Source: Paludibacteraceae bacterium (lineage in GTDB: Bacteria > Bacteroidota > Bacteroidia > Bacteroidales > Paludibacteraceae). From it: a stretch of 51,220 nucleotides of DNA. The notes under the pieces are model-generated. The model was not told where the DNA came from. It was given only the letters and a program-made list of their open reading frames with translations, and did not search any database. A program made the position numbers and the translations under genes. The stretch lies in assembly GCA_017962085.1 (NCBI GenBank), contig JAGCWA010000022.1, forward strand, positions 1 through 51,220. Direction: 5' to 3'. Positions 21,415 to 47,158 of this stretch are shown piece by piece (the first letter of the stretch is position 1; every line of letters starts with the position of its first letter).

Positions 21415-21633
21415 TTGACAATGTTTATTATAGATTCCGCAAGATTTCAAAAAATGGCAAAATCGGCGTGTAATGTTATTTTCACAAAAATAATCCTTTT
21501 GTCCAATTGTCAATAAATATCTGAGCTATATTTTTCTACGGGACAAGTAATGATCCGATAAGGTTCATCGCTTCCGAATGCCCCCTCCCTCACAAAAAAG
21601 AGAAGTTCAGCAATATATTCCAACGAAAAAGAG

Positions 21634-21641
21634 TATATTTG
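21634..21641 (+). promoter_or_regulatory. -7 element TATATTTG for the HTCS gene
   Basis: Exact TAnnTTTG match 29 bases before the ATG at 21671. It lies downstream of the more upstream in-frame ATG at 21578, ruling that start out for transcripts from this promoter. Confidence 0.65.
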
Positions 21642-21670
21642 CACCGCTAAAACCGAAAAACACAGAACCA

Positions 21671-32239: not shown

Positions 32240-33511
32240 TCACCTCGCCACGCTAACCGGCTCGGCGCACAACTCCGCACACAAAAAATCGTACGCCTCC
32301 GTGATCGTGCGGAAACGGATCGTGGCCTCCTCCCTTTCTCCATCCGTGGCGGTAGGCGGCAGGGTGTCGGGGTGGCAACTCTTCACCTGTTTGCGGTAAG
32401 CGCTCTTAACCTCCTCCAACGAGGCCTCCGTGCTCACGCCCAGCAGGTTGCAGGCCTCACGCTTGCGGCTGGAGCAGACGGATTGGAACCGTTCACGCTG
32501 TTTCGCACGCTGCGCATCCTCGGCGTTCTCTTTTTTCTCCGTTTGCTCCGCTTGTTTCCGTTGCTCATTCGCCTGTTTTTCCGACTCAAATCGGTACTTC
32601 AAGGAGAGGAAGTCCCACTCCTTGATGACAAAGTAAAAAGCGATTTTGGAGAGGAAATCCAATTCCCGCTCGTCCACCATGTCATCCCCCGCATACATGC
32701 ACTCGAAGAAATGGGAAAGCAATTCCAGGCGCTTCGCATACGACCAACTTTCGCTCCGCATAAGTTTAAGACACATATTCAGACATTCATTCATGCACTT
32801 CTTCTTCGTGTCTTCCCTATATTTCCCCAACCAATAAGAAAGCCTTTCAGAGAGATAAGGGGCTTTGTATCCCAAATCACTAAGTTCCTTCACCTTGAGC
32901 ATACAACGCACCGCACATTGACGTTCTTTTTCATATGCTTCGCAAAAGGATTTATTCCGCAGCAGCAGCCTAGCGAAGAACTTCGCCCTCAGTTCGACCT
33001 CTTTGTTCTCCACTTTGTTTTGGAACAATTCAGGAAAGCAAGACAACAAGAACTGTCGATTACGTGAATTATCATCCAATTCAATACTATCATCGGTAGA
33101 ATGGAAATATAACATGATCTTCTTGCGATAACGATTCGTTCTCTCATCATATTCCAACCTCACAATACTTTTCAAATCAGAATACAAGATTTTTTTTGCA
33201 TTCAATCCGAAAGTGTTTTCTGTCACAAGACAATCCCTAAACCAGTATTGACGGGCGCAATCCGTCCAGCACATGTGAAAGAAATAAAAGAGGACAACTA
33301 TAGTCCAAATACAAAGGAATGGAGTAGCCTGGCCATCAGCATCACGGCTGTCTATGAATCCGAGGAGAGACAAGAACAACAAAATTAACATAGACAATAT
33401 CCAACAAACCGAATGGATCCAAGTATCGCCCATACGGAAAGCCCCGTCCTTCGTCAGCAATCCACCACTCTTCAAGTCCTTGAATACACTATTTATCTTT
33501 TCCTTGTCCAT
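32240..33511 (-). CDS. Membrane-anchored TerB-J domain protein, array member A
   Basis: 423 residues. Opens with MDKEKINSVFKDLKSGGLLTKDGAF, the conserved N-terminal motif of the array. Two transmembrane helices follow (about 33-55 and 63-84), then a possible PH-like stretch (YWFRDCLVTENTFGLNAKKILYSDLKSI), a helical region, a TerB-like segment around 262-320 (LLSHFFECMYAGDDMVDERELDFLSKIA), a charged Lys/Gln/Glu linker longer than in its siblings, and a J domain with HPD near 379. J domains stimulate Hsp70 ATPase; TM-TerB-J is the order of DjlA. Most like member D (MDKxKIxSVFxDLKS). Last of the array; its stop is 23 bases before the BspA-like gene. Confidence 0.85.
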   Translation of the reverse strand: MDKEKINSVFKDLKSGGLLTKDGAFRMGDTWIHSVCWILSMLILLFLSLLGFIDSRDADGQATPFLCIWTIVVLFYFFHMCWTDCARQYWFRDCLVTENTFGLNAKKILYSDLKSIVRLEYDERTNRYRKKIMLYFHSTDDSIELDDNSRNRQFLLSCFPELFQNKVENKEVELRAKFFARLLLRNKSFCEAYEKERQCAVRCMLKVKELSDLGYKAPYLSERLSYWLGKYREDTKKKCMNECLNMCLKLMRSESWSYAKRLELLSHFFECMYAGDDMVDERELDFLSKIAFYFVIKEWDFLSLKYRFESEKQANEQRKQAEQTEKKENAEDAQRAKQRERFQSVCSSRKREACNLLGVSTEASLEEVKSAYRKQVKSCHPDTLPPTATDGEREEATIRFRTITEAYDFLCAELCAEPVSVAR

Positions 33512-33516
33512 AGTTT

Positions 33517-33524
33517 CAAAATTA
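33517..33524 (-). promoter_or_regulatory. Array promoter, member A (TAATTTTG, five bases from ATG)
   Basis: TAATTTTG then AAACT then ATG. TTG lies 19 bases upstream of the element on the same strand (in CCATTGC), completing the -33 / -7 pair. Predicts a leader of about 0-2 nt. Confidence 0.7.
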
Positions 33525-33578
33525 GCACAATTTCATGAGACAGCAATGGAGCATGGCATTGATAAAAAAAGAACCGTG

Positions 33579-34775
33579 TCATTTTGCCACGCTAACCGGC
33601 TCCGCACTCAGCTCCGCACACAAGAAATCGTAGGCCTCCGTGATCGTACGGAAACGTTGTGAAGCCTCCTCCCGCTCCGCTACTGTGGCAGTGGAAGGCA
33701 GCGTATCCGGGTGGCAGGTCTTCACCTGCGTGCGGTAGGCGCTCTTCACCTCCTCCAACGGGGCATCCGCTTTCAGGCCCAGCAGGTTGTAGGCCTCACG
33801 CTTACGGTTGGAACAAACAGATTGGTAACGTTCCCGTTGTTGGGTGTTCTCCGAACCCTTCTGTTGATCCTTCGACTGTTTCTCCGCCTCGAAACGGTAC
33901 TTCAGCGAGAGGAAGTCCCATTCCTTGATGCGCAAGTAGAATGCAATGCGGGAGAGACGTTCCAACTCCGACTCATCCACCATGCCATCGCTCGCATACA
34001 TGCATTCGAAGAGATGCGACAGAAGATCCAACCGATCGGCATAGTCCACACTCTTGTTCTTCACAATGGACAAACAAATATTCATATACCCCTCACCCCC
34101 AGGGAGACGTTGCGCCGACTTGTACATGTTGAAACGGTGGATTGCCTGGGAAAGATCATGATAATAATTCAGGTCACGGTACTTCGACTCTTCAAAGTAC
34201 TTTTGGGCACTTTTAAACTCCACATTCTGGTAATCGGAGTCACTCTTCATGGCTATCACATCCGCAAAAAGCCGAATTATATCCGCATAAAATAATTTAT
34301 TGACAAAGACGGGTTTAAAGCAGGTGTTAAAGAGTTGCAATAGCGCCCTTTTCTCTTCCTGCGACAAATGGTACAACTTCACATCAATTGTCTGTTCATC
34401 AAAGTGAAGCATGAGATGTTTGCCCTTCTGCTCCTTCTCATCCACACAACAATAATCGACCCGGTTCAACGTGTTATAATAATATTTCCGATTACCATAC
34501 TCCATGAATTTCGTACGGAAATAGAGAGAAGGGGGTATCAGACGGGGAATCATGGCGAACAAAAAGCCCAAAAAAGGGAGAAAAAACAAGTCACCAAACA
34601 GGTCAAAATATATAATAATAAGAAAGGGAACGAGTGAAAATGCTAATATTTTGAAGATATGCCGCCAACTGAACAGAGTCACAACCAATGCCCCCAACCT
34701 GAGAAAGGGTTTCTCCTCCCAGCTCTTAAATAAAAGTTCTATCTTCGTTTCGTCCACATTCCACTTTTCGTCCAT
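33579..34775 (-). CDS. Membrane-anchored TerB-J domain protein, array member B
   Basis: 398 residues from the ATG (a GTG three codons earlier is possible). MDEKWNVDETKIELLFKSWEEKPFLRLGAL is a longer variant of the array motif. Two hydrophobic segments (about 36-85), YCCVDEKEQKGKHLMLHF in the PH-like position, LLSHLFECMYASDGMVDESELERLSRIA in the TerB-like domain and RTQVKTCHPDTLPSTA with HPD near 355 follow. It is one of two intact members lacking the array promoter; instead it begins 26 bases after the stop of member C and is therefore probably translated from C's mRNA. Confidence 0.83.
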   Translation of the reverse strand: MDEKWNVDETKIELLFKSWEEKPFLRLGALVVTLFSWRHIFKILAFSLVPFLIIIYFDLFGDLFFLPFLGFLFAMIPRLIPPSLYFRTKFMEYGNRKYYYNTLNRVDYCCVDEKEQKGKHLMLHFDEQTIDVKLYHLSQEEKRALLQLFNTCFKPVFVNKLFYADIIRLFADVIAMKSDSDYQNVEFKSAQKYFEESKYRDLNYYHDLSQAIHRFNMYKSAQRLPGGEGYMNICLSIVKNKSVDYADRLDLLSHLFECMYASDGMVDESELERLSRIAFYLRIKEWDFLSLKYRFEAEKQSKDQQKGSENTQQRERYQSVCSNRKREAYNLLGLKADAPLEEVKSAYRTQVKTCHPDTLPSTATVAEREEASQRFRTITEAYDFLCAELSAEPVSVAK

Positions 34776-34801
34776 AATCCACACGTTAACTTATTAAAAC
34801 A

Positions 34802-36001
34802 TCATGATACAACAACTCGTTCCATATTTAGCTCCAAACTCAGGAAATCATACGCCTCCGTGATTGTGCGGAAACGTATCGTAGCCTCCTCCCGCTCCGA
34901 CGCCATGGCGGTAGGCGGCAGGGTATCCGGGTGGCAGGTCTTCACCTGCGTGCGGTAGGCCGCCTTCACCTCCTCCAGCGTGGCATTCTCCTTCAGCTCC
35001 AATATCTTGTAAGCCTCCCGCAAACGGCTGGAATAGGCGGCTTGGCAACGTTCACGTTGTTGGGCGTCCTCCGTGCCTTTCCGCTGATTTTTGGTCTGTT
35101 GCTCCGACTCGAAACGGTACTTCAGCGAGAGGAAGTCCCATTCCTTGACACAGAAGTAATAGGCGATATGGGAAAGGCATTCCAGCTCCTCGTCATCCAC
35201 CTTGCCATCACTCGCATAGGCACATTCGAAAAGGGCTGAGAGCAAATCCAGCCGGTCGGCATAGCACACGCCCTTATTCTGCAAAATGTCGAGGCAAATA
35301 CTGATATACCCATAATCAGCAGGAAGTGTGTTCGTCCGTCTATAGGCATTGTATCGATTCTTTTGAGAGACAAAGGCATTTGGGGCAGAACTATTTTTAC
35401 ACACCTCCGACAAATATTTCAGCGCACATTGGGACTCCTCTTTCTGATACTGAGGGTCATCCTTTAACGTCACCACATACGCAAAGAGTTTTCCCATCTG
35501 CTCCTCATACATCTTATTGACAAACAAAGACCTAAAGCAAGAAAACAGTTGCGTCAAACAATCGAACCTCGTTTTTGACGAAAATTCAGACCCCATATAA
35601 AAAGACCAATCCTTGAACGAAACGGAAAGAGTCTTCACCCACCTATTCGAATTACTGTCGTAATAATTGTCATGGACAATTTTGTTTAGATCAGTATAAT
35701 AATGCCTGCGTTTTATGAGTCCCCATAGGTAAAACAACTCCACACGGTCCTTATAGAAATGTTTGACGGAAAACAATTGGACAAATAAGAGGAAGGAAGC
35801 CACCCCGCAGGCGATAGGGATAGAGAAATGGACGTCGAGTTCGGCCATCATTCCGCATGTGATGCCAAAAATGAAAAATCCGAGAGGGACTCCAATGAGA
35901 AAAGGGGCCATACTACGCCCCACTTTCAACGACCCCCTCCTCGTCAACAAGTCTTTTTTCTTCCAACTTGCGAATAAGCTATCTAATCTCTCCTTGTCCA
36001 T
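34802..36001 (-). CDS. Membrane-anchored TerB-J domain protein, array member C
   Basis: 399 residues. MDKERLDSLFASWKKKDLLTRRGSL opens the protein. Two transmembrane helices (about 30-75), HFYKDRVELFYLWGLIKRRHYYTDLNKIV as PH-like stretch, LLSALFECAYASDGKVDDEELECLSHIA as TerB-like domain and HPD near 357 follow. It ends EAYDFLSLELNMERVVVS, unlike the AEPVSVAR ending of most siblings, so its last codons escaped homogenisation. Closest to members E and I (LFASWKKK, YKDRxExF). Leads a two-gene unit with B. Confidence 0.85.
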   Translation of the reverse strand: MDKERLDSLFASWKKKDLLTRRGSLKVGRSMAPFLIGVPLGFFIFGITCGMMAELDVHFSIPIACGVASFLLFVQLFSVKHFYKDRVELFYLWGLIKRRHYYTDLNKIVHDNYYDSNSNRWVKTLSVSFKDWSFYMGSEFSSKTRFDCLTQLFSCFRSLFVNKMYEEQMGKLFAYVVTLKDDPQYQKEESQCALKYLSEVCKNSSAPNAFVSQKNRYNAYRRTNTLPADYGYISICLDILQNKGVCYADRLDLLSALFECAYASDGKVDDEELECLSHIAYYFCVKEWDFLSLKYRFESEQQTKNQRKGTEDAQQRERCQAAYSSRLREAYKILELKENATLEEVKAAYRTQVKTCHPDTLPPTAMASEREEATIRFRTITEAYDFLSLELNMERVVVS

Positions 36002-36006
36002 AGTTT

Positions 36007-36014
36007 CAAAATTA
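36007..36014 (-). promoter_or_regulatory. Array promoter, member C (TAATTTTG)
   Basis: Same TAATTTTG-AAACT-ATG layout. The further upstream spacer is of the class that holds a perfect 24-bp palindrome. Confidence 0.65.
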
Positions 36015-36180
36015 GCACTTTTTTTTGAAATATAGAATGATGGAATAGAAAACCCCTAACGGGATATTTTCGCGTGTTGAATCATATCTGTTCTATTAAG
36101 AGAAAGCCTCTACGGGCAAAGAACATGCGAGGATTGGCACGCAACAAAAGAACGGTAACGGCCACACATTCGTTGTTGGC

Positions 36181-36204
36181 AGAGACGATGTGCACATCGT
36201 CTCT
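36181..36204. repeat. 24-bp palindromic repeat, copy 1
   Basis: AGAGACGATGTG and its reverse complement, with no mismatch. It lies in the spacer between members C and D, embedded in about 80 bases shared with the spacers at 41589 and 47257. Confidence 0.85.
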
Positions 36205-36216
36205 ACGAGGGAACAA

Positions 36217-37467
36217 TCATCTCACCACGCTGACCGGCTCCTTGCTCAGTTCCGCACACAAAAAATCGTATGCCTCCGTGACCGAGCGGAAACGGATGAT
36301 GGCCTCTTCTCGCTCCTTGATCGTGGCGGTAGGCGGCAAGGTGTCCGGGTGGCAGCTCTTCACCAATGTGCGATAGGCACGCTTCACCTCCTCCAACGTG
36401 ACGCCCTGCTTCAGCTCCAGCAGGGAATAGGCCTCCTGCTTACGGTTAGAACAAACCTGTTGATAGCGCTTCTGCTGTCGGGTATTCTCCTCCCCCTTCT
36501 GCTTGGACTCCTCCTGTTTTTTCCCTTCAAAACGATGCTTCAAGGAAACGAAGTCCCAAGATCTGATTTCGAGGCTAATGGCGATTTGAGAGAGAAGTTC
36601 CAGCTCCCACTCATCCACCAGACCATCCTCCACATAGGTACATTCGAAGAAATAGGTAAGCAACGCCAGGCGTTCCTCATAAACCATGCTTTTAGATTTC
36701 ATGATCTCACGGCCCAGTGTGCGACAATCCTCCACACATTTCTCCTTCGTGTCACGTTTGCATTGCTTCAACCAATAAGTAAGACGATTTGTAAAGTAAC
36801 GCTCTTCATCCCCCCGACCACGATACGTCTTTAAACTAGTGAAATAACGCACCGCACATTGACGTTCCTTCACATACGGACGGCACTCGGTTGCATCCCT
36901 TTTAAGCACTCTGGCAAAGAGTTTCATCCTCAAATCATACTCATCATCATGCACATCGCACTCTTGTTCGGAAAAGATATCGCCAAAACAAGAGCGAAAG
37001 AATTCGCACGCACGTGGATCATCATCTATCGAGATAGTATCCATACCACGTTTGCGGAAGGATATGTCTATAGTTATTTCATACTTCTTCGTTTTCTCGT
37101 CATATTTCGGATATCTTTTAATTTCACTGATATCGGAATAACTATACTCGTGCACATTAGTTCCGAAGGAATTTTTTGTCACAAGACGGTCTCTATACCA
37201 ATATAGACGAGCAGGCAACAACCAAAGACCCCACAGAGCCAAAAGGGCGAATGGAGAAAAAAACATCATTCCCAATATTTTACTCCATCCATCCAATATC
37301 CATAAAAAGAAGATTCCTAAGCCAAAAACAGCCAAAAAGAACAGAGCACGGAGGAATGTTTCTATCATGCCGGCGACTGAATCCCCCATATAAAAAGCCC
37401 CGTCTTTCTTCAGCATATTCTTGCTCTTTAGGTCTTCGAACACACTATCTATCTTTCCCTTGTCCAT
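36217..37467 (-). CDS. Membrane-anchored TerB-J domain protein, array member D
   Basis: 416 residues. MDKGKIDSVFEDLKSKNMLKKDGAFYMGDS is almost the opening of member A. Two long hydrophobic segments (about 35-80), LYWYRDRLVTKNSFGTNVHEYSYSDISEI in the PH-like position, LLTYFFECTYVEDGLVDEWELELLSQIA in the TerB-like domain and RTLVKSCHPDTLPPTA with HPD near 373 follow. A and D share a region with RQCAVR and a Cys-rich helix (KEKCVEDCRTLG / KKKCMNECLNMC) missing in the others, so form one subfamily separated by B and C. Confidence 0.85.
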   Translation of the reverse strand: MDKGKIDSVFEDLKSKNMLKKDGAFYMGDSVAGMIETFLRALFFLAVFGLGIFFLWILDGWSKILGMMFFSPFALLALWGLWLLPARLYWYRDRLVTKNSFGTNVHEYSYSDISEIKRYPKYDEKTKKYEITIDISFRKRGMDTISIDDDPRACEFFRSCFGDIFSEQECDVHDDEYDLRMKLFARVLKRDATECRPYVKERQCAVRYFTSLKTYRGRGDEERYFTNRLTYWLKQCKRDTKEKCVEDCRTLGREIMKSKSMVYEERLALLTYFFECTYVEDGLVDEWELELLSQIAISLEIRSWDFVSLKHRFEGKKQEESKQKGEENTRQQKRYQQVCSNRKQEAYSLLELKQGVTLEEVKRAYRTLVKSCHPDTLPPTATIKEREEAIIRFRSVTEAYDFLCAELSKEPVSVVR

Positions 37468-37472
37468 AGTTT

Positions 37473-37480
37473 CAAAATTA
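37473..37480 (-). promoter_or_regulatory. Array promoter, member D (TAATTTTG)
   Basis: Same layout, five bases before the ATG. The spacer is of the class also found before A and E, with TTG at the -33 position. Confidence 0.68.
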
Positions 37481-37533
37481 GCACAATTTTATGGGAACGC
37501 AATGGAGCATGACATTGATAAAAAAGAACCGTA

Positions 37534-38748
37534 TCATTTCGCCACACTAACCGGCTCCGCGCTCAGCTCCGCACACAAGAAATCGTAGGCCTCCGTGATC
37601 GTGCGGAAACGTATCGTAGCCTCCTCCCGCTCCGACGTTAGGGCGGTAGGCGGCAGGGTATCCGGGTGGCAGGTCTTCACCTGCGTGCGGTAGGCGGTTT
37701 TCACCTCCTCCATCGTGGCTTTCTCATTCAATCCTAATATCTTATAAGCCTCCTTCAGGCGGTTGGAATAGGCGGATTGGCAACGCTCACGTTGCTGGGC
37801 GTTCTCCGTGCCATTCCGTTGTTTTTTGGTCTGGCTTTCCGTCTCGAAGCGATACTTCAGTGAGAGAAAGTCCCACTCATTGATACGGAAGTAGAAGGCG
37901 ATGCGGGAGAGGCGGTCCAGCTCCACATCGTCCACCATACCGTCACTCGCATAGGTACATTCGAAAAGAGCAGACAACAATTCCAACCGGTCCGCATAGC
38001 ACACGCCCTTGTTGTGCAGAATATCGAGGCATACAGAGACATACCCCAATTCCGCAGGAAGTTTGTCTTCCTCCTGCCTATACGCATTGTATAGTTTTAT
38101 TCCAGAGGCAAGTTTTTCCCCATAATCCGTAGAACTATTTCCACACACCTCCGCGAGATACCTCACCGCGAACTGAGTCTCCTCATACTGATATTGAGGA
38201 TCACTCTTTAGCGTTATCATATACGCAAGGAGATTTACCATCTGCTTATAATAGAACTCATTGACAAACAGAGGTTTGTAGCAAGAAAATAATTGCAACA
38301 AACAATCAAAGTTTTTATCAGTGAAAAAGCCACGATCCACTCGGCACAGCATCTTTTTGGACGAAATGACAAGAGCCGTCTCCCAAGAGTCCGATTTAAA
38401 ATCATAAAAAGAAGAATAGACTATTTTCTTCAAATCCGCATAATAAACCTTACGTTTTACAAGCCCCCACAAACGAAACACCTCGATACGATCCTTGTAA
38501 AAATGTTTGACGGGAAACATTTGGACAAATAGGAGGAAGGAAACCGCTCCACATGCGATGGAGATGGGGGAATGGGGGGAGGAGAATATCGATTCGGTCA
38601 CCGCGATTGCATACCCAGAAAAGACCATTCCGACAAGGGGGCCGAATACATAAGGGATCCAACTACGCCCCATAACCAACGCACCGTTCGTCAACAAATT
38701 CTTTTTCTTCCAGCTTGCGAATAAACTATCTAATCTTTTCGTATCCAT
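37534..38748 (-). CDS. Membrane-anchored TerB-J domain protein, array member E
   Basis: 404 residues. MDTKRLDSLFASWKKKNLLTNGALVMGRS, two transmembrane helices (about 30-75), HFYKDRIEVFRLWGLVKRKVYYADLKKIV, LLSALFECTYASDGMVDDVELDRLSRIA and RTQVKTCHPDTLPPTA (HPD near 361). It is the nearest relative of member C over the whole length, including the membrane and PH-like parts, pointing to a fairly recent duplication of one unit across D. Ends AEPVSVAK. Confidence 0.85.
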   Translation of the reverse strand: MDTKRLDSLFASWKKKNLLTNGALVMGRSWIPYVFGPLVGMVFSGYAIAVTESIFSSPHSPISIACGAVSFLLFVQMFPVKHFYKDRIEVFRLWGLVKRKVYYADLKKIVYSSFYDFKSDSWETALVISSKKMLCRVDRGFFTDKNFDCLLQLFSCYKPLFVNEFYYKQMVNLLAYMITLKSDPQYQYEETQFAVRYLAEVCGNSSTDYGEKLASGIKLYNAYRQEEDKLPAELGYVSVCLDILHNKGVCYADRLELLSALFECTYASDGMVDDVELDRLSRIAFYFRINEWDFLSLKYRFETESQTKKQRNGTENAQQRERCQSAYSNRLKEAYKILGLNEKATMEEVKTAYRTQVKTCHPDTLPPTALTSEREEATIRFRTITEAYDFLCAELSAEPVSVAK

Positions 38749-38753
38749 AGTTT

Positions 38754-38761
38754 CAAAATTA
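38754..38761 (-). promoter_or_regulatory. Array promoter, member E (TAATTTTG)
   Basis: TAATTTTG-AAACT-ATG, with TTG 19 bases upstream of the element (CCATTGCGTTCC context), a complete -33 / -7 pair. Confidence 0.7.
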
Positions 38762-38814
38762 GCACAATTTTATGGGAACGCAATGGAGCATGGCATTGAT
38801 AAAAAAGAACCGCA

Positions 38815-40068
38815 TCATCTCGCCACGCTAACCGGCTCGGCGGCCAACTCCGCACATAGGAAATCGTATGCCTCCGTGATCATACGGAAACGTATCGACG
38901 CCTCCTCCCGCTCGCTATCCTTGGCATTAGGCGGCAGGGTATCCGGGTGGCAAGCCTTCACCAATTTACGGTAGGCGCTCTTCACCTCCTCCAGAGAGGC
39001 TTTCTCCCTCAATCCCAACATTTTATAAGCCTCCCGCATACGGTTGGAGCAAACAGTCTGATAGCGTTCACGCTGTTGGGCGTCCTCTGTCTTTTTCTGT
39101 TCTGCCTCAGCCTGTTTTTCCGCCTCGAAATGATACTTCAGCGAGAGGAAGTCCCAATCCTTGATGCAAAGCCAATAGGCGATGCGGGAAAGCCTTTTCA
39201 GCTCCACATTGTCCACCATGTTGTCGCTCGCATAGGCACATTCGAAGAGATGCGCCAGAAGATCCAAACGGTCAGCGTAATCCACGCCTGGGGCTTTCAT
39301 GATACGGTAGCAATAATCCTCATAATTATAATACGATCGAGTTCTAATTTTTCGGCCGCCCCTAATTTCATAACACAGCAGGTCATCCAAGCAGGAATCA
39401 AGTTGTTTCTCATAATCAAAACGACTATATTTCGACTCTGAGAAGTACTTCAGGGCAGCCGTCCGTGCAACCGAATAATCAGGTTCGGGTTTCTTCAACA
39501 CAATCAAATTAGCGAAGAGGGCAACCATATATTCAAAGAAAACTTGATTAACAAAAATCGGTTTGAAGCACGAAGTAAAGAAACGAGACAGACGTCCAAA
39601 CTGACTCTTCATCACGGAATCCCCATCTATCACAAAAGTTTTCTCGCCAACTTTGATATTGAGACTCATGAAATGATCGACAGAACCAGACTTGTTTTTG
39701 TATGTAATTTGTTTGCAGGTTATCTCCTCCAAGTCAGTATATTGGTAAGATTTCTTAAATAATCCAAAGAATTTGGATTCAACCATGCGATCTTTATAAA
39801 AATAAAGAGTGGGCCAAAGAATTGAGAGGCCCAGAACAATGGACAACACCCACACCACACCAATGATCTTCAAAATGAAAACGAGCGACTCACGGGGGAA
39901 TAGATCAATAAAGCAATATACAAAAATAATAACAAGTATGGTTGTCGACAAAAACAACGCGGATCCACTTCCATCGGACCTCAACCTACACTTGTAGGCA
40001 CCCATCCTCGTCAAATAGGATTTGCTTTGCCATTCCTTGAATATGTTCTCTATCTTTGCCGTGTCCAT
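38815..40068 (-). CDS. Membrane-anchored TerB-J domain protein, array member F
   Basis: 417 residues from the ATG at 40068. The frame stays open upstream through the promoter element into the preceding gene's 3-prime end, but the conserved MDTAKIENIFKEWQSKSYLTRMGAY fixes the start. Two transmembrane helices (about 35-90), LYFYKDRMVESKFFGLFKKSYQYTDLEEI, a Lys/Arg-rich insert (YEIRGGRKIRTRSYYNYEDY), LLAHLFECAYASDNMVDNVELKRLSRIA and RKLVKACHPDTLPPNA (HPD near 374) follow. Its N-terminal 20 residues match K and L, while its central part matches neither, suggesting a mosaic. Confidence 0.85.
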   Translation of the reverse strand: MDTAKIENIFKEWQSKSYLTRMGAYKCRLRSDGSGSALFLSTTILVIIFVYCFIDLFPRESLVFILKIIGVVWVLSIVLGLSILWPTLYFYKDRMVESKFFGLFKKSYQYTDLEEITCKQITYKNKSGSVDHFMSLNIKVGEKTFVIDGDSVMKSQFGRLSRFFTSCFKPIFVNQVFFEYMVALFANLIVLKKPEPDYSVARTAALKYFSESKYSRFDYEKQLDSCLDDLLCYEIRGGRKIRTRSYYNYEDYCYRIMKAPGVDYADRLDLLAHLFECAYASDNMVDNVELKRLSRIAYWLCIKDWDFLSLKYHFEAEKQAEAEQKKTEDAQQRERYQTVCSNRMREAYKMLGLREKASLEEVKSAYRKLVKACHPDTLPPNAKDSEREEASIRFRMITEAYDFLCAELAAEPVSVAR

Positions 40069-40073
40069 AGTTT

Positions 40074-40081
40074 CAAAATTA
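40074..40081 (-). promoter_or_regulatory. Array promoter, member F (TAATTTTG)
   Basis: Same layout. This is the short spacer class in which the preceding gene ends only about 50 bases before the ATG; no TTG at -33. Confidence 0.62.
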
Positions 40082-40120
40082 GCATATTTTTTTACAAATA
40101 CCGCACGCACCCGTAGGCAA

Positions 40121-41470
40121 TCACCTCGCCACGCTAACCGGTTCAGCGCATAATTCCGCGCACAAAAAATCATATGCCTCCGTGATCGTACGGAAACGTA
40201 CCGTGGCCTCCTCCCGTTCGCTATCCTGGGCGGTAGGCGGCAGGGTGTCCGGGTGGCAAGCCTTCACCAGCGCACGGTAGGCGGACTTCACCTCCTCCAA
40301 CGTGGCGCCCTGTTTCAAGCCCAGCAAATTATAGGCCTCACGCATGCGGCTGGAACAAACGGATTGGTAGTGCTCGCTTTGTCGGGCGTTCTCCGTGCCC
40401 TCCCGTTGCCCTTTTTGTCGCTTCTCGGTTTCGAAATTATACTTCAGCGAGAGGAAATCCCACTCCTTGATACGGAAGTAGTATGCGATGCGGGAGAGAC
40501 GGTCCAACTCCACCACGTCCACCAGACCATCGTTCGCATAGGCGCATTCGAAGAGGTGGGAAAGAAGCTCCAGACGGTCCGCATATTCCACCCCCGGGTT
40601 CCGCAGAATAGAGGAGCTCCTAGAGACATAATCCTCACTTATAGGCAGGCGGTTACGTGCCCTATATTGATTAAACAAAACAACCTGTTCCGCAAGCTGG
40701 CGAGGATAGTCATAGCCATCGAACTTCGGAGCGGAAAAATAGAGAGAGGCGATTTGCAATCCCTTAGACTGGTTCTCCGGAACCCTACTCATGGTTATCA
40801 TATCCGCGAAAAGCCTCAACGAATCCTCGCAAAGAGATTCATTGACGAAGATAGGCTTAAAGGCAGTGTCGAACAGATAGAGCAGATGGCCTATCACAAG
40901 TTCCCCCTCCACCGCTATGGGTCGATCCATTCCCTTGAATAACATATGGGCACGGAAATCCTTTCCCTTCGAAGAGGTGCACACGACCCTCTCCATGTCA
41001 GAATAATTGTATGTTCTATCATGTCCGATACAGCCAGAGGAGACCACCACACGATCTTCGTAAAAGTGGAGAATTGGTTTATGCTTTGAGAAAAGGGAAC
41101 ACAACGGATCAATAAAGAAGTAAAATATCGGGTTCCATACAGCGTATAAACGATACACGGACAGACTAAGGAAAGATTTGAAAAGCGTTGAGAAAAGCCT
41201 CATCAACAAGTAGGCGAATGCAAGGACAGCTACAGGAGAGATCACCATAGCACATACACGATTGTATGCGTCCAACCATTTAATAGCCAAGAAAAAAGCA
41301 CCCACGCAACCGACAATCAGGGACAAAACCAATAACAGAAACAAAATGTTAGACACGATGATCATGAGGTAATACGCGAAATTCGGCACAGCTCTCAGAG
41401 CACCCTTCTTCGTCAGCAGAGATTTCTCCCGCCATATCTTGAATATCCTATCTATTTTTCCCTTGTCCAT
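40121..41470 (-). CDS. Membrane-anchored TerB-J domain protein, array member G
   Basis: 449 residues. MDKGKIDRIFKIWREKSLLTKKGALRAVPNF is followed by a longer hydrophobic part than in most siblings (three or four segments over about 35-135), then ILHFYEDRVVVSSGCIGHDRTYNYSDMERVV, LLSHLFECAYANDGLVDVVELDRLSRIA and RALVKACHPDTLPPTA (HPD near 406). It groups with K and L by the long membrane part and the VVSxGxIG strand. Confidence 0.85.
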   Translation of the reverse strand: MDKGKIDRIFKIWREKSLLTKKGALRAVPNFAYYLMIIVSNILFLLLVLSLIVGCVGAFFLAIKWLDAYNRVCAMVISPVAVLAFAYLLMRLFSTLFKSFLSLSVYRLYAVWNPIFYFFIDPLCSLFSKHKPILHFYEDRVVVSSGCIGHDRTYNYSDMERVVCTSSKGKDFRAHMLFKGMDRPIAVEGELVIGHLLYLFDTAFKPIFVNESLCEDSLRLFADMITMSRVPENQSKGLQIASLYFSAPKFDGYDYPRQLAEQVVLFNQYRARNRLPISEDYVSRSSSILRNPGVEYADRLELLSHLFECAYANDGLVDVVELDRLSRIAYYFRIKEWDFLSLKYNFETEKRQKGQREGTENARQSEHYQSVCSSRMREAYNLLGLKQGATLEEVKSAYRALVKACHPDTLPPTAQDSEREEATVRFRTITEAYDFLCAELCAEPVSVAR

Positions 41471-41475
41471 AGTTT

Positions 41476-41483
41476 CAAAATTA
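41476..41483 (-). promoter_or_regulatory. Array promoter, member G (TAATTTTG)
   Basis: Same layout; the upstream spacer is of the palindrome-bearing class. Confidence 0.65.
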
Positions 41484-41588
41484 GCACATTTTTTTGAAAT
41501 ATATTATTATGAAACAGAAAACCTCTAACGGGGTATTCCCTCATGTTGTCACCCATAAACGGTAACGGCCCCACATCCAATGTCGGTT

Positions 41589-41610
41589 GAGACGATATGC
41601 ACATTGTCTC
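41589..41610. repeat. Palindromic repeat, copy 2 (decayed)
   Basis: GAGACGATATG with CACATTGTCTC: two mismatches to perfect symmetry. It sits in the spacer between member G and the remnant H. Confidence 0.75.
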
Positions 41611-41684
41611 TACGATGGAACGCACCCGTACACCGTATATGTTTTCTAATGGAAATCAACAAGATAGATCCATCCATAAAGCAA

Positions 41685-41869
41685 TCATCTCGCCACGCTA
41701 ACCGATTCCGCACTCAGCTCAGAGCACATAAATTCGTAGGCCTCCGAATCGTACGGAAACGTAGGACAGCCTCCTCCTTCTCCTTGTCCGTGGCGCCCTT
41801 CCTAGTCAGCAATGAGTCCTTCTTCCACTCCTGAAACAACAGTTCTATTTTTTTCTTATCCACAGCCAT
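41685..41869 (-). pseudogene. Remnant H of a TerB-J array gene (internal deletion plus frameshift)
   Basis: Translating from the ATG at 41869 gives MAVDKKKIELLFQEWKKDSL then LTRKGA, the N-terminal motif of the array. It then jumps directly into TDKEKEEAVLRFRTI, the last helix of the J domain. About 1 kb encoding the membrane, PH-like, TerB-like and HPD parts is missing. One base is also lost (ATCACG of the siblings reads ATTCG), so the reading frame leaves the family ending, although EAYEFMCSELSAESVSVAR can still be read in the old frame to 41685. The remnant starts 16 bases after the stop of member I, the same tight arrangement as B after C. Confidence 0.88.
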
Positions 41870-41885
41870 ACATCCACGTATTAAA

Positions 41886-43088
41886 TCACCTCGCCACGTT
41901 GACAGGCTCAGCGCTCAACTCCGCGCACAAGAAATCATAGGCCTCCGTAATGGCACGGAAGCGTTGCGTCACCTCCTCCCGTTCCGCCAACGTGGCAGTG
42001 GACGGCAGAGTATCCGGGTGGCAGGTCTTCACCAGCATGCGATAAGCGCTCTTCACCTCCTCTAACGTGGCATCCGTCTTCAGATCCAGCAAATTGTAGG
42101 CCTCCCGTTTGCGGCTGGAATAGACGGAACGGTAACGTTCACGCTGCTTCGCATATGCGTCGTTCTCGGACTGACCGCTAGACTGCTCCTGCTTCAACGC
42201 CTCGTACTGATACTTCAGCGAGAGGAGGTCCCAATCCTTGATGCAGAGGTAATAGGCGATGCGGGAGAGATAGTCCAACTCCTCATCGTCCACCGTGCCA
42301 TCGCTCGCATAGGCGCACTCGAAAAGGCGAGACAGGAGCTCCAGGCGGTCGGCATAATCCACAGCCTTATCCTGCATGATGGCCAAACAAACATTGATAT
42401 ACCCCATATTCGCGGGGAGTGTGTTCGCCTGCCGATGTTTATTATACAAACCAATCTGTTCGGAGATGTCTTTTTTGCAATTATACACACCGTATTTCGA
42501 CTCCGTGAGATACTTCAACGCGCATTGGGTCTCCGCCGACTGATACTGGGGATCCGACTTCAACGAGATCACATTCGCGAAGAGTTGTATCATCTTCTCA
42601 TAATACAATTCATTGATGAATAACGGTTTAAAACCCGAACAAAACAACCGGTTCAGACATTCGAACTTTTTATTAACGCCACTAGTTTCATTAAAGGAGA
42701 CTTCACTCTTCTTAAAGTAGATGCGCAACGTCCTGACCCAAACCTTATCTTTCTTTTTGTATTGCAGGGTATGCGTAACCTTCTCCAAGTCAGAATAATA
42801 TACCTTACGATTAAAAAGACCGAACAAGTAGGAATAATCCATACGATCCTTGTGAAATTTCTTGGAAGGGAAAAGCACCACAAACACGAGAAGAATAAAT
42901 GCCAGCAAAGCAACCGCCAACATAAGATTTCCCAATTGCTCCTTGACATAAAAAAAAGTGGTCGCGGCAATAAACAAGGCAGAGGTTATCGTCCTAAAAC
43001 TGTTACCCATGCACAATGCGCCCTTACTCGACAGCAATTTCTTCTTCTTCCAACTCTCAAATAAACTTTCAATCTTCGCACTATCCAT
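41886..43088 (-). CDS. Membrane-anchored TerB-J domain protein, array member I
   Basis: 400 residues. MDSAKIESLFESWKKKKLLSSKGALCMGNS, two transmembrane helices (about 31-70), KFHKDRMDYSYLFGLFNRKVYYSDLEKVTH, LLSRLFECAYASDGTVDDEELDYLSRIA and RMLVKTCHPDTLPSTA (HPD near 357) follow. It resembles members C and E. It lacks the array promoter: the 130-base spacer to member J is unique, with only TATATTTA as a weak -7 candidate. It probably once led a two-gene unit with the now deleted H. Confidence 0.85.
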   Translation of the reverse strand: MDSAKIESLFESWKKKKLLSSKGALCMGNSFRTITSALFIAATTFFYVKEQLGNLMLAVALLAFILLVFVVLFPSKKFHKDRMDYSYLFGLFNRKVYYSDLEKVTHTLQYKKKDKVWVRTLRIYFKKSEVSFNETSGVNKKFECLNRLFCSGFKPLFINELYYEKMIQLFANVISLKSDPQYQSAETQCALKYLTESKYGVYNCKKDISEQIGLYNKHRQANTLPANMGYINVCLAIMQDKAVDYADRLELLSRLFECAYASDGTVDDEELDYLSRIAYYLCIKDWDLLSLKYQYEALKQEQSSGQSENDAYAKQRERYRSVYSSRKREAYNLLDLKTDATLEEVKSAYRMLVKTCHPDTLPSTATLAEREEVTQRFRAITEAYDFLCAELSAEPVNVAR

Positions 43089-43218
43089 AATAATAATTCT
43101 TTACTCGAAAAATCAAGTAAATATAACAAAACGGAACGAATTCAGGAAATAAAAATAGGGAAATACGAAGCATTCAGGGAACATATTCTTTTGCCTCTCC
43201 GGGGGCGTACCGCCCACA

Positions 43219-44370
43219 TCATTTTGCCTCAACGATCGGTTCGGCGCTCAACTCCGCACACAAAAAATCATACGCCTCCGTAAGTGTGCGGAAGCGCAGG
43301 GTTGCCTCCGCCTTCTCTTTTTCCGTAGCGGTAGGCGGCAGGGTGTCTGGGTGGCAGGTCTTCACCTGCGTTCGATAAGCAATCTTCACCTCCTCCAATG
43401 TGGCATTCTCCTTCAGTCCCAGCAGGTTGCAGGCCTCCTGCAGGCAGTTCGAGTAAACAGACTGGCGACGTTCCTGTCGCTTCGAGTTTTCCGTATTTTC
43501 CCGTCGGTCCTTCGCCTGACCCTTCGTTTCGAAACGATACTTCAGCGAGAGGAAGTCCCATTTCTCGATATACAAGCGGGAAGCTATTTGCGCCAGGGAC
43601 ACCAACTCCTCTTCATCCACCATGTCATCGCTCGCATAAGCGCACGCAAAAAGATGGTACAATATGGTCATGCGCTCTTCATAGGAGGAATTACCAGCCA
43701 TGATAGACGAACAGATGTATTTGTAGTCTTCCTCTTCCGGAATGCTATCCTGCAACTTATATTCGTTGAAATAGTCCACCATATCAGTAAGTTTGTCAGG
43801 ATAACCATTAGAATGGAACTTCGGATCGGAAAAATAATTCAGGGCAGATTTCAGGCCTTCCGATTGATACTGCACATCATCTCTCAGGGTGATCACATCC
43901 GCAAAGAGCCTCAACGCATTATCACACAGAGGCTGATTGAGATATTCCGATTCGAAACATGTACGGAAGAAAGGAAACAATTTTTCGCTCACAGAGATAG
44001 AACGATTGTCCTTAAATTCAAGACGCATATGGTTGTTCGGCAACTCCCTCACACAAACCAAATCGGAATAGTAGAAACATTGCACATTCTCTTCCCAAGG
44101 CTGATGTTTTTCAATACGATCCTTGTAAACGAGCGTAACAGGGTGGATTCCCATCCATGAAAACAAGAGCGCCATACCAGACAACAACGCCAGGATCTTA
44201 AAAATCAACAAAGTGGGGACTGCCCCAACAACTATAATAGCCAACAAGAAAAGATAGAGGAGTCTCCATTCTGAAATGAACTTCGGAACAATCTTCATCG
44301 CTCCGTCCTTCGTCAAATCATTCTCCCTTGAAAAATTATCAAAGTATATGTCTATCCGTTTTTTGTTCAT
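43219..44370 (-). CDS. Membrane-anchored TerB-J domain protein, array member J
   Basis: 383 residues from the ATG at 44370, the shortest intact member. MNKKRIDIYFDNFSRENDLTKDGAMKIVPKF is the most divergent version of the N-terminal motif. Two transmembrane helices (about 37-75), LVYKDRIEKHQPWEENVQCFYYSDLVCV, LYHLFACAYASDDMVDEEELVSLAQIA and RTQVKTCHPDTLPPTA (HPD near 340) follow. The ending AEPIVEAK also differs from AEPVSVAR. Confidence 0.84.
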   Translation of the reverse strand: MNKKRIDIYFDNFSRENDLTKDGAMKIVPKFISEWRLLYLFLLAIIVVGAVPTLLIFKILALLSGMALLFSWMGIHPVTLVYKDRIEKHQPWEENVQCFYYSDLVCVRELPNNHMRLEFKDNRSISVSEKLFPFFRTCFESEYLNQPLCDNALRLFADVITLRDDVQYQSEGLKSALNYFSDPKFHSNGYPDKLTDMVDYFNEYKLQDSIPEEEDYKYICSSIMAGNSSYEERMTILYHLFACAYASDDMVDEEELVSLAQIASRLYIEKWDFLSLKYRFETKGQAKDRRENTENSKRQERRQSVYSNCLQEACNLLGLKENATLEEVKIAYRTQVKTCHPDTLPPTATEKEKAEATLRFRTLTEAYDFLCAELSAEPIVEAK

Positions 44371-44375
44371 GGTTT

Positions 44376-44383
44376 CAAAATTA
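44376..44383 (-). promoter_or_regulatory. Array promoter, member J (TAATTTTG)
   Basis: TAATTTTG-AAACC-ATG; short spacer class. Confidence 0.62.
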
Positions 44384-44421
44384 GCATATTTTTTACAAAT
44401 TCCGCACACACCCGTAGGTGA

Positions 44422-45813
44422 TCACCTCGCCACGCTAACCGGTTCGGCGCACAATTCCGCACACAAAAAATCGTAGGCCTCCGTGATCGTACGGAAACGG
44501 ATGGCGGCTTCCTCCCGCTCGCTATCCTTGGCATTAGGCGACAGGGTGTCCGGGTGGCAGGTCTTCACCAATTTACGGTAGGCGCTCTTCACCTCCTCCA
44601 GCGAGGCCTTCTCCTTCAATTCCAACACCTTATAGGCCTCCCGCAAACGGTTGGAATAGGCGGATTGGTAACGTTCGCTTTGCTGGGAGTTCTCCTTGCC
44701 ATTCCTCCTGCTCCGTTGTTGTTTCATGGCTTCGAAACTATACTTCAGCGAGAGGAAGTCCCAATCCCTGATACAGATGTAGTAAGCGATGTGGGAGAGG
44801 CGGTCCAGCTCCACCACGTCCACCATCTCCTCGCTCGCATAGGCGCATTCGAAGAGGTGCGACAGGAGATCCAGGCGAGCGTCGTAATCCACCCCTTTGT
44901 TCTTCAGGATAGACAAACATCTGCTGATGTAATCCTCGCTTGTAGGCATACGTTTCTGTGCCCTGTACTGATTGAACGTGTCAACCAGTTCCGAGAGCCT
45001 TCGAGTGTAATCATAGTCTTTGTACTTCGGCTCCGAGAAGTATTTCATGGCGCATTGCAGTCCATCCTGTTGGCTCTTGGGGTCACGTCCCAAGGTGATC
45101 ATGCCCGCATAGAGCCGCAACATATCCTCACACAAAGGCTCATTGACAAAGATTGGTTGAAAGGCGGAACCGAGCAGATGTAACACATCGCCCAACTTCG
45201 GAGAGTCTTTCAGCTCAACAGGCTTTTCCCTACCCTTAAACAGGATCCTTAGGCGGAACTCTTTCTTATCCAAATATGAGCACGTAATACTTTTTATGTC
45301 AGAATAAAAGCATTTTTCCTTAGGTCCAATCCAACCGGTAGAAACCACCAGATGATCCTTATGGAACAAATGGATAGGCTTATAAAACAAGAAAGGAAGA
45401 GCCGACGGTTCCCAACAGAAGTATAATATCGTCTCGGAGATGGTGGAACATTTAATCAGCACAGAATAGAGGAATCCAAGTATTCTTGAAAGCCTTCCAT
45501 TTCTGAAAACAAAATAGAGAAGAATGCATGTCGCAGATAAAAAGAGGAAAAAGAAATTGGATTCTGCACTTCTTCCCCAATGCATGAGGTCTAACAACCA
45601 GGAAGCACATAAGTATGGACCACCAAATATGACGAAAAGAAGGGCAACAAGGAGTAACAGGTAAAGTACTCCCACCACAAAAGCACCTGGCATACCAAGT
45701 AACATTCTAGCAACAGACACAAAATTCGGGTCCGCCCGCAGCGCACCCTTCTTCGTCAACATAGCCTTCTTTTGCCATTCCTTGAATATGTTCTCTATCT
45801 TTACCGTGTCCAT
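44422..45813 (-). CDS. Membrane-anchored TerB-J domain protein, array member K
   Basis: 463 residues from the ATG at 45813, the longest member. MDTVKIENIFKEWQKKAMLTKKGALRADPNF is followed by four hydrophobic segments over about 35-140, LFHKDHLVVSTGWIGPKEKCFYSDIKSI in the PH-like position, LLSHLFECAYASEEMVDVVELDRLSHIA and RKLVKTCHPDTLSPNA (HPD near 420). From about residue 155 to the end it is nearly identical to member L, while the membrane parts differ strongly. Confidence 0.86.
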   Translation of the reverse strand: MDTVKIENIFKEWQKKAMLTKKGALRADPNFVSVARMLLGMPGAFVVGVLYLLLLVALLFVIFGGPYLCASWLLDLMHWGRSAESNFFFLFLSATCILLYFVFRNGRLSRILGFLYSVLIKCSTISETILYFCWEPSALPFLFYKPIHLFHKDHLVVSTGWIGPKEKCFYSDIKSITCSYLDKKEFRLRILFKGREKPVELKDSPKLGDVLHLLGSAFQPIFVNEPLCEDMLRLYAGMITLGRDPKSQQDGLQCAMKYFSEPKYKDYDYTRRLSELVDTFNQYRAQKRMPTSEDYISRCLSILKNKGVDYDARLDLLSHLFECAYASEEMVDVVELDRLSHIAYYICIRDWDFLSLKYSFEAMKQQRSRRNGKENSQQSERYQSAYSNRLREAYKVLELKEKASLEEVKSAYRKLVKTCHPDTLSPNAKDSEREEAAIRFRTITEAYDFLCAELCAEPVSVAR

Positions 45814-45818
45814 GGGGT

Positions 45819-45826
45819 CAAAATTA
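45819..45826 (-). promoter_or_regulatory. Array promoter, member K (TAATTTTG)
   Basis: TAATTTTG-ACCCC-ATG: the element and spacing are kept although the five bases differ from the siblings; short spacer class. Confidence 0.62.
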
Positions 45827-45868
45827 GCATAAAATTTTTTTACAAATTCCGCACGCACCCGTAGGCAA

Positions 45869-47158
45869 TCACCTCGTCACGCTAACCGGTTCGGCGCACA
45901 ATTCCGCACACAAAAAATCATACGCCTCCGTGATTGTTCGGAAACGGATGGTGGCCTCCTCCCGCTCCTTATCCTTGGCGGTAGGCGGCAAGGTGTCCGG
46001 GTGGCAGCTCTTCACCAATTTGCGGTAGGCGCTCTTCACCTCCTCCAGCGAGGCTTTCTCCTTCAATTCCAGTATTTTATAAGCCTCCCGCAGACGGTTG
46101 GAATAGGCGGATTGGTAACGCTCGCTCTGCTGGGCGTTCTCCTTGCCATTCCTCCTGCTCCGTTGTTGTTTCATGGCTTCGAAACTATACTTCAACGAGA
46201 GGAAGTCCCACTCCCTGATACGGAAGTAGTAAGAGATGTGGGAGAGGCGGTCCAGCTCCACCACGTCCACCATCTCCTCGCTCGCATAGGCGCATTCGAA
46301 GAGGTGCGACAGGAGATCCAGGCGAGCGTCGTAATCCACCCCTTTGTTCTGTAGGACGGACAAACATCTGTTGACGTAATCCTCGCTTCCAGGCATACGC
46401 TTCTGTGCCCTGTACTGATTGAACGTGTCAACCAGTTCCGTGAGCCTTCGAGTGTAATCATAGTCTTTGTACTTCGGCTCCGAGAAGTATTTCATGGCGC
46501 ATCGCAGTCCATCCTGTTGGCTCTTGGGGTCACGTCCCAAGGTGATCATGTCCGCATAGAGCCGCAACATATCCTCACACAGAGGCTCATTGACAAAGAT
46601 TGGTTGAAAGGCGGAACCGAGCAGATGCAACACATCACCCAACTTCGGCGCAATCTCTACCTCAATAGGTTTTTTCCTCCCCTTAAACAGGATCCGTAGG
46701 AGGAATGCCTTCTTACTCAGACGTGAACATGTGATTTTTTCCATGTCAGAATAAAAACATTTTTCCTTAGGTCCAATCCAACCGGTAGAAACCACCAGAT
46801 GATCCTTATGGAACAGAAGAATAGGTTTAAAACACAAAACAGGGAGAAACAGAGGTTCAACAAGGGGGTAAAGTATCTTCTTGAAAGCATCTGAAGTTTT
46901 GGACAGCATTGAAAAGAATCGATCGAGGATATCTTTCTGCTTTCTCTTTCGGAGGTCCCAGTACAATGAAAAAAAATAAAGAGTCACGAGGAAAAACGGA
47001 ACAAAGATGATTAGCGACAGACAATATCCGCCCCCTCTGAGAAATACACTTCTAATGATAGACAGAAAAATCGGATCCACTTGTAGCGCACCTTTCTTCG
47101 TCAGCATAGATTTGTCTTGCCATTCCTTGAATATGTTCTCTATTTTTGCTGTGTCCAT
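45869..47158 (-). CDS. Membrane-anchored TerB-J domain protein, array member L
   Basis: 429 residues. MDTAKIENIFKEWQDKSMLTKKGALQVDPIF, a hydrophobic segment at about 41-65 and weaker ones to about 115, LFHKDHLVVSTGWIGPKEKCFYSDMEKI, LLSHLFECAYASEEMVDVVELDRLSHIS and RKLVKSCHPDTLPPTA (HPD near 386). First gene of the array in transcription order; the divergent Sel1 gene starts about 300 bases away. Confidence 0.86.
   Translation of the reverse strand: MDTAKIENIFKEWQDKSMLTKKGALQVDPIFLSIIRSVFLRGGGYCLSLIIFVPFFLVTLYFFSLYWDLRKRKQKDILDRFFSMLSKTSDAFKKILYPLVEPLFLPVLCFKPILLFHKDHLVVSTGWIGPKEKCFYSDMEKITCSRLSKKAFLLRILFKGRKKPIEVEIAPKLGDVLHLLGSAFQPIFVNEPLCEDMLRLYADMITLGRDPKSQQDGLRCAMKYFSEPKYKDYDYTRRLTELVDTFNQYRAQKRMPGSEDYVNRCLSVLQNKGVDYDARLDLLSHLFECAYASEEMVDVVELDRLSHISYYFRIREWDFLSLKYSFEAMKQQRSRRNGKENAQQSERYQSAYSNRLREAYKILELKEKASLEEVKSAYRKLVKSCHPDTLPPTAKDKEREEATIRFRTITEAYDFLCAELCAEPVSVTR

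Follow-up and report, generated by a model that had tools for sequence, protein, structure and literature searches.

Among described systems, the closest comparisons for the proteins reported here are DjlA and the bacterial PH/YcxB-like proteins. DjlA, a membrane-tied protein of Proteobacteria present in one copy, carries a single N-terminal helix, a TerB-like part and then a C-terminal J domain with an HPD motif. YcxB-like proteins, for their part, place a membrane hairpin beside a PH domain, giving a combination of membrane helices and PH-like sandwich that is also suggested by the models here. A more distant case is PG1108 of Porphyromonas gingivalis (PDB 2h5n), which differs in being a 123-residue chain without other parts, at 12% identity, and which is absent among the 50 matches listed for our second structural model. 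The sharing of few Hsp70s by many J proteins is familiar from eukaryotes, yeast having 22 J proteins and human 49 by the counts quoted in PMC13254874.

In the window (the whole stretch of 51,220 nucleotides analysed, from a Paludibacteraceae bacterium), eleven intact minus-strand paralogues and one remnant span positions 32240-47158 with no unrelated gene in between, a layout claimed in an earlier note on this DNA and confirmed by the open reading frames (Table 1). Counted from conserved ATG starts, the eleven proteins are 383-463 residues long. The remnant retains a J-tail end, SEAYEFMCSELSAESVSVAR in frame 1, with stops upstream. The literature searched contains no description of such arrays, although the Barriot 2020 survey of bacterial J proteins may mention them. 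The NCBIfam DjlA model matches all seven members scanned, of the eleven, at 45.1-57.7 bits, far under its equivalog cut-off of 162 bits, and eleven tandem copies stand here against the one of DjlA.

Table 1. Features of the array and its surroundings, with positions in the window.
Feature	Position	Strand	Description
DoxX/MauE gene	27791-29065		precedes the 29100..29855 gene; used as divergence control
Left anchor outside array	29100..29855	(+)	presumably triosephosphate isomerase; used as divergence control
Repeat protein adjoining array	30108..32216	(-)	702 aa; presumably LRR-like; no Pfam match at E 0.01
Array member 1	32240..33511	(-)	423 aa, front type F
Array member 2	33579..34775	(-)	398 aa
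Array member 3	34802..36001	(-)	399 aa, AlphaFold model 1
Perfect palindrome AGAGACGATGTG/CACATCGTCTCT	36181..36204	.	12 bases past member 4 stop
Array member 4	36217..37467	(-)	416 aa, front type B
Array member 5	37534..38748	(-)	404 aa, front type C
Array member 6	38815..40068	(-)	417 aa from conserved start; ORF extends to 40173
Array member 7	40121..41470	(-)	449 aa
Remnant of member	about 41682..41870	(-)	J-tail end close behind start-like piece; not an intact gene
Array member 8	41886..43088	(-)	400 aa; top Pfam TerB score among ten scanned
Array member 9	43219..44370	(-)	383 aa
Array member 10	44422..45813	(-)	463 aa, AlphaFold model 2
Array member 11	45869..47158	(-)	429 aa; closest member to Sel1 gene
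Right anchor, Sel1-repeat protein	47457..49226	(+)	14 repeats; divergent from array

The C-terminal J domain with HPD that the earlier note had proposed is borne out by profile searches. PF00226 scores above its curated cut-off in all ten window members put through the Pfam scan and in all eleven in the genome search, which includes member 11 (scanned with NCBIfam), and the HPD motif is intact in 11/11. Across the analysed genomes HPD is present in 60/60 complete members, a figure that is partly built into how they were selected, and at least three K/R residues precede it in 57/58, as in a basic helix II. For TerB the picture is more mixed: PF05099 is above cut-off in two of the ten window members and below it in eight, and the genome search, with slightly different scoring, places four above and two more below. 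At E 0.001, a J domain is found in 54/54 sequences of set A5 and PF05099 in 17/54. A TerB-type helical bundle was found, the helical segment of model 1 being similar to a TerB-like structure. Neither of the structural outcomes that the earlier note named as refuting it, an HPD region other than a J domain or a helical segment unlike TerB, was obtained.

Structural models can be used to place the remaining parts. Model 1 (member 3, AlphaFold, pLDDT 91.9) has a split PH-like domain, helices at residues 32-52 and 60-75, a TerB-like part at 157-299 and the J domain at 313-394, and model 2 (member 10, AlphaFold, pLDDT 85.7) has an insert of three long helices separating PH strands 1 and 2. In both members the predicted order thus starts with a PH-like domain, interrupted after strand 1 by membrane helices and resumed at strand 2, and continues with the TerB-like part and J. 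This is not the simple TM-TerB-J order of DjlA, as had been claimed, because the split PH-like domain surrounds the membrane helices; in the two modelled members it replaces, with two or three such helices, DjlA's single N-terminal one. It also departs from bacterial PH/YcxB-like proteins, both in the position of the helices and in the fusion to TerB and J. A PH-like nature had been suggested for the strand-rich stretch, and its fold appears PH-like, with bacterial PH structures 3dcx, 3hsa and 3b77 among the structure matches of the models; in Pfam, neither bPH nor YcxB matches at E 1 in the ten members scanned. With Foldseek by itself, no PDB entry matched at E 0.001 or below, and a PDB profile search with A4 gave J-region matches only among the best 60 listed. 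As for the two to four hydrophobic segments counted earlier, a hydropathy scan gives 1-3 per window member at its threshold, and the models show two membrane helices (34802-36001) and three long helices (44422-45813).

The bacterium belongs to a group found in animal guts. In the 3.4 Mb genome, 27 J domains stand against one full-length DnaK, a ratio that sets this bacterium apart from the eukaryotic repertoires. Two further J-protein arrays, of nine genes on contig C52 and three on contig C25, are present in the same genome, as is a separate TM-TerB-J singleton of 271 residues (L008, contig C52). Nine or more J domains occur in 3/33 genera sampled in the family, which agrees with the lineage-specific expansion suggested earlier, and within these three genera the number goes up to at least 27-29. 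Counts in such rich genomes are lower bounds, up to 29 candidates per genome having been scored in the family survey, 10 in the genus and 15 in the phylum; this genome, for instance, shows at least 15 J domains in the phylum survey against 27, and at least 10 of the eleven window members in the genus survey. In the phylum-wide sample, 391 other genomes have seven or fewer each. Three genera of one family exceed the usual small bacterial set, put at six or fewer J proteins in 90% of 1709 genomes in the figures given by PMC13254874. Within the genus, 7/16 genomes have arrays of this type, tied to the same neighbour genes; the Sel1 gene adjoins array members in 6/7 array-bearing species, the exception being the G009 contig. 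The nearest relative has no array at that locus.

Some members are nearly identical between species while flanking genes mostly differ by 7-24%; for example, a nearly identical copy of member 1 is present in another species, G005. Some member pairs agree over the first 60% and then diverge at the rear, and repertoires differ between species. By pattern, then, the genes behave like exchangeable cassettes. The apparent exchange of these genes between related species suggests a variable set of sensors in the membrane or of adaptors for quality control. Strict concerted evolution of the J end within genomes found no support, permutation giving p 0.75-0.94 for this array and 0.056 for the C52 type, neither significant. 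These mosaic and clustering analyses, like the rate analysis, covered ATG-started ORFs of 58 of the 60 complete members, leaving aside two members that lack HPDTL and array genes cut by contig ends.

Tentatively, we favour a recombining repertoire of membrane-anchored class C J-protein adaptors that would link membrane targets to the single DnaK, possibly driven by conflict. As predicted from sequence and models, each protein would open with a helix and first strand that are conserved, followed by the variable insert of membrane helices between PH-like strands 1 and 2 and by a TerB-like bundle, and would end in a J domain carrying HPD and a basic helix II. The N terminus and the whole tail would lie in the cytosol; the insert, with the PH-like face, may bind or sense a bilayer target, to which DnaK would be brought by the tail for unfolding, extraction or remodelling. 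In the observed pattern, crossovers fall between the variable front and the J end, and some members recur almost unchanged in different species. The pressure could come from recurrent conflict, with membrane proteins of phage or toxin origin, or from membrane clients that change fast, and in either case keeping and trading a varied set would pay. Candidate roles named earlier are envelope stress handling, defence and quality control for particular clients. A bolder form, which we consider unlikely, is a locus resembling innate recognition inside the bilayer: a hypervariable insert on a constant PH-TerB-J scaffold would recognise membrane proteins of foreign origin (lysis or exclusion proteins of phages, toxins delivered by contact) and hand them to the single DnaK. 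Each species would keep its own selection from at least 21 front types, and these would be traded in recombination events in which the conserved J end is used again. A result described in PMC11709261 argues against a membrane part that chooses the target and makes the favoured reading somewhat less probable: DjlA, the closest relative studied, could still activate Rcs when given the membrane helices of MalF, so what counted there was being anchored, whatever the sequence of the anchor. Also weighing against the favoured reading are the pN/pS values and the control TM gene described below, the lack of significant J-end homogenisation within genomes, and the outcomes of the Foldseek, PADLOC, phage and plasmid searches.

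Alternatively, each member could guide DnaK to one resident, fast-evolving family of membrane or exported proteins, as quality control specific to a client and with no conflict involved. Such a role would suit J proteins in general, described in PMC8215388 as Hsp70 targeting factors, and DjlA, whose action on Rcs is reported in PMC11709261 to require the J domain and membrane attachment. In G001, G003, G005 and G013 alike, front type D sits beside Sel1, as would be expected of a resident gene; other alleles common to several species, such as front type C, sit at differing array positions, which is less expected for a fixed resident client, and three species of the genus (G002, G008 and G014) manage with 3-4 J proteins each. 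On balance this reading is rather unlikely.

The rates of change bear on a further possibility, largely neutral amplification, in which unequal crossing-over in a repeat-rich locus would spread copies and the insert would drift, nearly any hydrophobic hairpin sufficing. Between the 58 members, J domains have a mean pairwise identity of 0.72 and membrane inserts, the fastest-changing part, one of 0.14. The earlier idea of one output coupled to many diversified membrane/PH-like inputs is thus kept for the conserved J end and shifted, on the input side, from the PH domain to the insert. In the membrane part, pooled pN/pS is below 1, and 4/15 pairs exceed 1, with the weight of type C coming from 4 replacements and almost no silent change; pairs had at least 8 differences and at most 20% difference, and cluster J, for which no boundary could be set, was omitted. 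Membrane helices tolerate hydrophobic swaps, and a control TM gene shows 1.4-4.3 times as much replacement in its TM segments as outside them; some of the gradient from insert to J is therefore expected. This high TM replacement, present in weaker form in the control, fits neutral spread, as do the tandem same-strand copies, the differing repertoires and a remnant with most of its gene gone. Against it, TerB2 and J are strongly constrained (pN/pS 0.17), HPD is kept throughout the complete members, a single remnant was noticed in the window, and TAnnTTTG is retained ahead of 40/58 starts, members 2 and 8 being without it; neutral amplification is accordingly improbable. Least probable of all is a decoy defence, in which membrane J domains would compete for or guard phage-required DnaK/DnaJ with the J tail as active part: phage sensing by bNACHT25 is mediated by host DnaJ, as stated in PMC12169576, and 13 loci on viral contigs match the J region only, but variation in a decoy would be expected at the site bound by the phage protein, and here the J end is conserved and the insert variable.

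With a conserved J tail and a membrane insert that is variable and passes from species to species, the array is a natural set of variants in which to ask whether the Hsp70 client can be chosen by a membrane segment, a question that also concerns DjlA-type co-chaperones, and whether Hsp70 recruitment serves bacterial conflict.

Further searches gave the following. Among the 7/11 members scanned, PADLOC 2023 gave a single match, a weak one to PDC-S26 (E 0.0044, 14.1 bits), and phage- or plasmid-borne copies were not found in phage and plasmid collections with one member as query. Pfam matches in the flanks include MauE/DoxX, Sel1 and GH16, and no mobile-element family appears by Pfam name among 13 flanking window genes (3 at E 0.01, 10 at E 0.0001). 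Foreign base composition was rejected, GC being 0.46-0.51 around the array and 0.45-0.51 in the rest of the window. The sigma-70 promoter type does not suit this bacterial group, and a sigma-70 and terminator scan, whose matches exceed those in shuffles, was set aside for that reason. Promoter inversion was likewise rejected, inverted repeats in the three gaps examined being short palindromes or chance-like. The perfect palindrome belongs to a dispersed repeat; other copies lie at 41590 (2 mismatches), 47258 and 49294, and the genome has 12 sites when 2 mismatches are allowed in its 20-base core.

The tandem array of eleven intact paralogues and one remnant described in the earlier note is real, and its minus-strand genes encode proteins that open with a common conserved N-terminal motif, have hydrophobic segments in their first part and close with a J domain. 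The C-terminal J domain was likewise borne out, as the HPD motif is intact in all eleven and the domain scores above the Pfam cut-off in every window member scanned (10/10). The TerB-like part proposed in the same note was recovered unevenly: Pfam TerB exceeds its cut-off in two of the ten scanned, falling below it in the other eight, and in four window members in the genome search. Across a broader collection of 54 proteins, an E value of 0.001 gave J domains in all 54 and TerB in 17. The array proteins belong to class C of the J proteins and include a TerB-like part. The motif TAnnTTTG, the Bacteroidetes -7 consensus, can be seen by eye just upstream of 9/11 window starts and lies no more than 20 bases from 40 of 58 member starts, suggesting that members probably have promoters of their own very near the start codon.

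Coordinates of the features discussed
Feature	Sequence	Position	Strand	Remark
Fic/DOC family gene	window	4191-5243		
Hybrid two-component regulator gene	window	21578-25699		
LRR-like gene	window	30108-32216	-	
J-protein array	window	32240-47158	-	eleven intact genes
Member with a near-identical front in G005	window	32240-33511	-	
Array remnant	window	about 41682-41870		one, beside the intact genes
Palindrome copies	window	36183, 41590, 47258, 49294		three within or beside the array
Further J-protein array, window's genome	L005	4470-16445		nine genes
Further J-protein array, window's genome	L006	3879-6785		three genes

The window's genome (G000) holds 27 J domains and one full-length Hsp70; a second frame of 341 residues matches the Hsp70 model at positions 135-242 alone. 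Besides the 11 in the array, the J proteins comprise a nine-gene array on contig C52, a three-gene array on contig C25 and four singletons, including DnaJ. Counts range from 3 to 27 within the genus (16 genomes), and in the family sample (200 genomes, 33 genera) at least 9 were counted only in genera g1, g5 and g20, the highest elsewhere being 8. Several genomes of g5 and g20 have about 20-29 J domains. In a phylum sample of 392 genomes at ≥90% completeness, with up to 15 candidates scored per genome, the 391 besides the window's own have at most seven. A review gives six or fewer J proteins for 90% of 1709 bacterial genomes (PMC13254874).

The theme of membrane J-protein arrays is wider than the window locus, as two further cases indicate. 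The C52-type array (TM, TerB, J) is strongly matched in the seven species of the genus that bear the window-type array and weakly in three more of the 16, and its 38 members repeat the pattern of a variable front and a conserved rear (mean nucleotide identity 0.42, 0.59 and 0.81). Another genome of the genus, G007, carries several separate arrays (L092-L095) of a different membrane J-protein subfamily, in which the four proteins scanned have membrane segments and a J domain and no Pfam TerB. By eye, the neighbours of the L092 array include a putative DNA adenine methylase gene and a putative restriction enzyme gene.

Full-length single matches to a J-less profile were obtained in 7/16 genomes of the genus and in none of the remaining genomes of the 200. 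In G133, a g20 genome, the profile matched in two pieces of one frame, together 8-320 of 329, other matches being partial; that genome may therefore contain a remoter relative laid out in the same way. The LRR-like gene lies beside the array in six of the seven array-bearing species; TIM and DoxX come next where fetched, except in G003, in which DoxX lies further along. Sel1 and GH16 also lie beside the array in six of seven. Unlike in the other species, Sel1/GH16 in G006 (L054) divide the array members into groups of two and seven, and DoxX is on a different contig. Sel1 is absent from the array contig of G009, where GH16 was looked for and not found, and the array is divided between two contigs in G005 and G013. 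In G012, the nearest relative without the array, TIM is followed by a single 279-residue gene and then Sel1; its DoxX identity is 77%, against 89-97% in array-bearing species. The 58 members analysed form 21 groups at 60% front-part identity. Subsets and orders of these front types differ among species, and type D keeps its position beside Sel1 in four, order across contig gaps being assumed in both cases. The LRR-like gene of the window encodes a 702-residue repeat protein with a signal-peptide-like start, CYxxMFxGCxxL-like repeats (by eye) and no Pfam match.

Change is concentrated towards the front. In 44 close pairs, which are not independent, dN/dS was 0.75 for the N-terminal and membrane part, 0.37 for PH, 0.21 and 0.14 for the TerB halves and 0.20 for J. 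Fifteen non-overlapping pairs gave pN/pS of 0.64 for the front/membrane part, 0.33 for PH plus TerB1 and 0.17 for TerB2 plus J (front versus rear, p 1e-22). Replacements reach 0.22-0.24 in both membrane helices and the intervening loop, compared with 0.12 in PH, 0.10 in TerB1, 0.11 in J (inflated by swapped J ends), 0.08 in the N motif and 0.04 in TerB2. Part of this gradient is ordinary, since in a DoxX control from four of the species the TM segments (0.13-0.29) also change faster than the rest (0.03-0.13). The membrane part exceeds a pN/pS of 1 in 4/15 pairs, which is suggestive of positive selection, not proof of it.

Members also appear as mosaics across species. For instance, the gene at 32240-33511 differs from a G005 gene at 1/771 bases in front and 7/498 behind, with 81/81 four-fold sites identical in front; between the same two species, four-fold identity is 0.63-0.74 for DoxX, Sel1, GH16 and the LRR-like gene and 0.83 for the very conserved TIM. 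One type common to G001, G003 and G013 shows 1-2/735 differences in the front and 35-56/468 in the rear (p 5e-14 to 5e-23), although the rear is generally the more conserved part. A shared assembly error is unlikely, as these three genomes match records of different isolate series (UBA, RUG, RUI), an argument that covers them and not the window's genome. The opposite mosaic occurs too (front 0.59-0.88, rear 0.94-1.0), and in the C52-type array a G000 and a G003 gene differ at 9/816 positions before the J domain and 53/213 within it. Front-nearest and rear-nearest neighbours coincide for only 26/58 members, and divergence is unremarkable in many other pairs of members from different species. 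Strict homogenisation of J ends within each genome was tested and not supported.

Three features fit conflict somewhat better than housekeeping: exchange between species, rapid change of the portion in the bilayer, and the lack of the array in close relatives. Among the members scanned, defence models gave no good match. The best explanation is that the proteins act as membrane adaptors to DnaK: the conserved tail would probably recruit DnaK, and the anchor and variable insert would probably position it at chosen membrane targets. DjlA is a precedent, its action on Rcs signalling requiring both J domain and membrane attachment (PMC11709261); by NCBIfam score and by layout alike, the array proteins fall outside DjlA. 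According to the same paper, DjlA with MalF membrane helices still functions on Rcs, so its target is not chosen by its own helix. Because of this result, the adaptor explanation moves from an even chance to slightly under one. Recognition, by the insert and within the bilayer, of foreign membrane proteins was already doubtful and becomes marginally more so. Client-specific quality control gains a little, and neutral amplification a shade less.

A dispersed GTAGAGACGATGTGCACATCGTCTCTAC-like palindrome, possibly a REP-like element, has 12 sites in the genome at ≤2 mismatches in a 20-base core, four of them in the window. Elsewhere in the window, one gene encodes a hybrid two-component regulator of 1373 residues that combines propeller, kinase, receiver and AraC-type domains, and another encodes a member of the Fic/DOC family that carries a helix-turn-helix domain.
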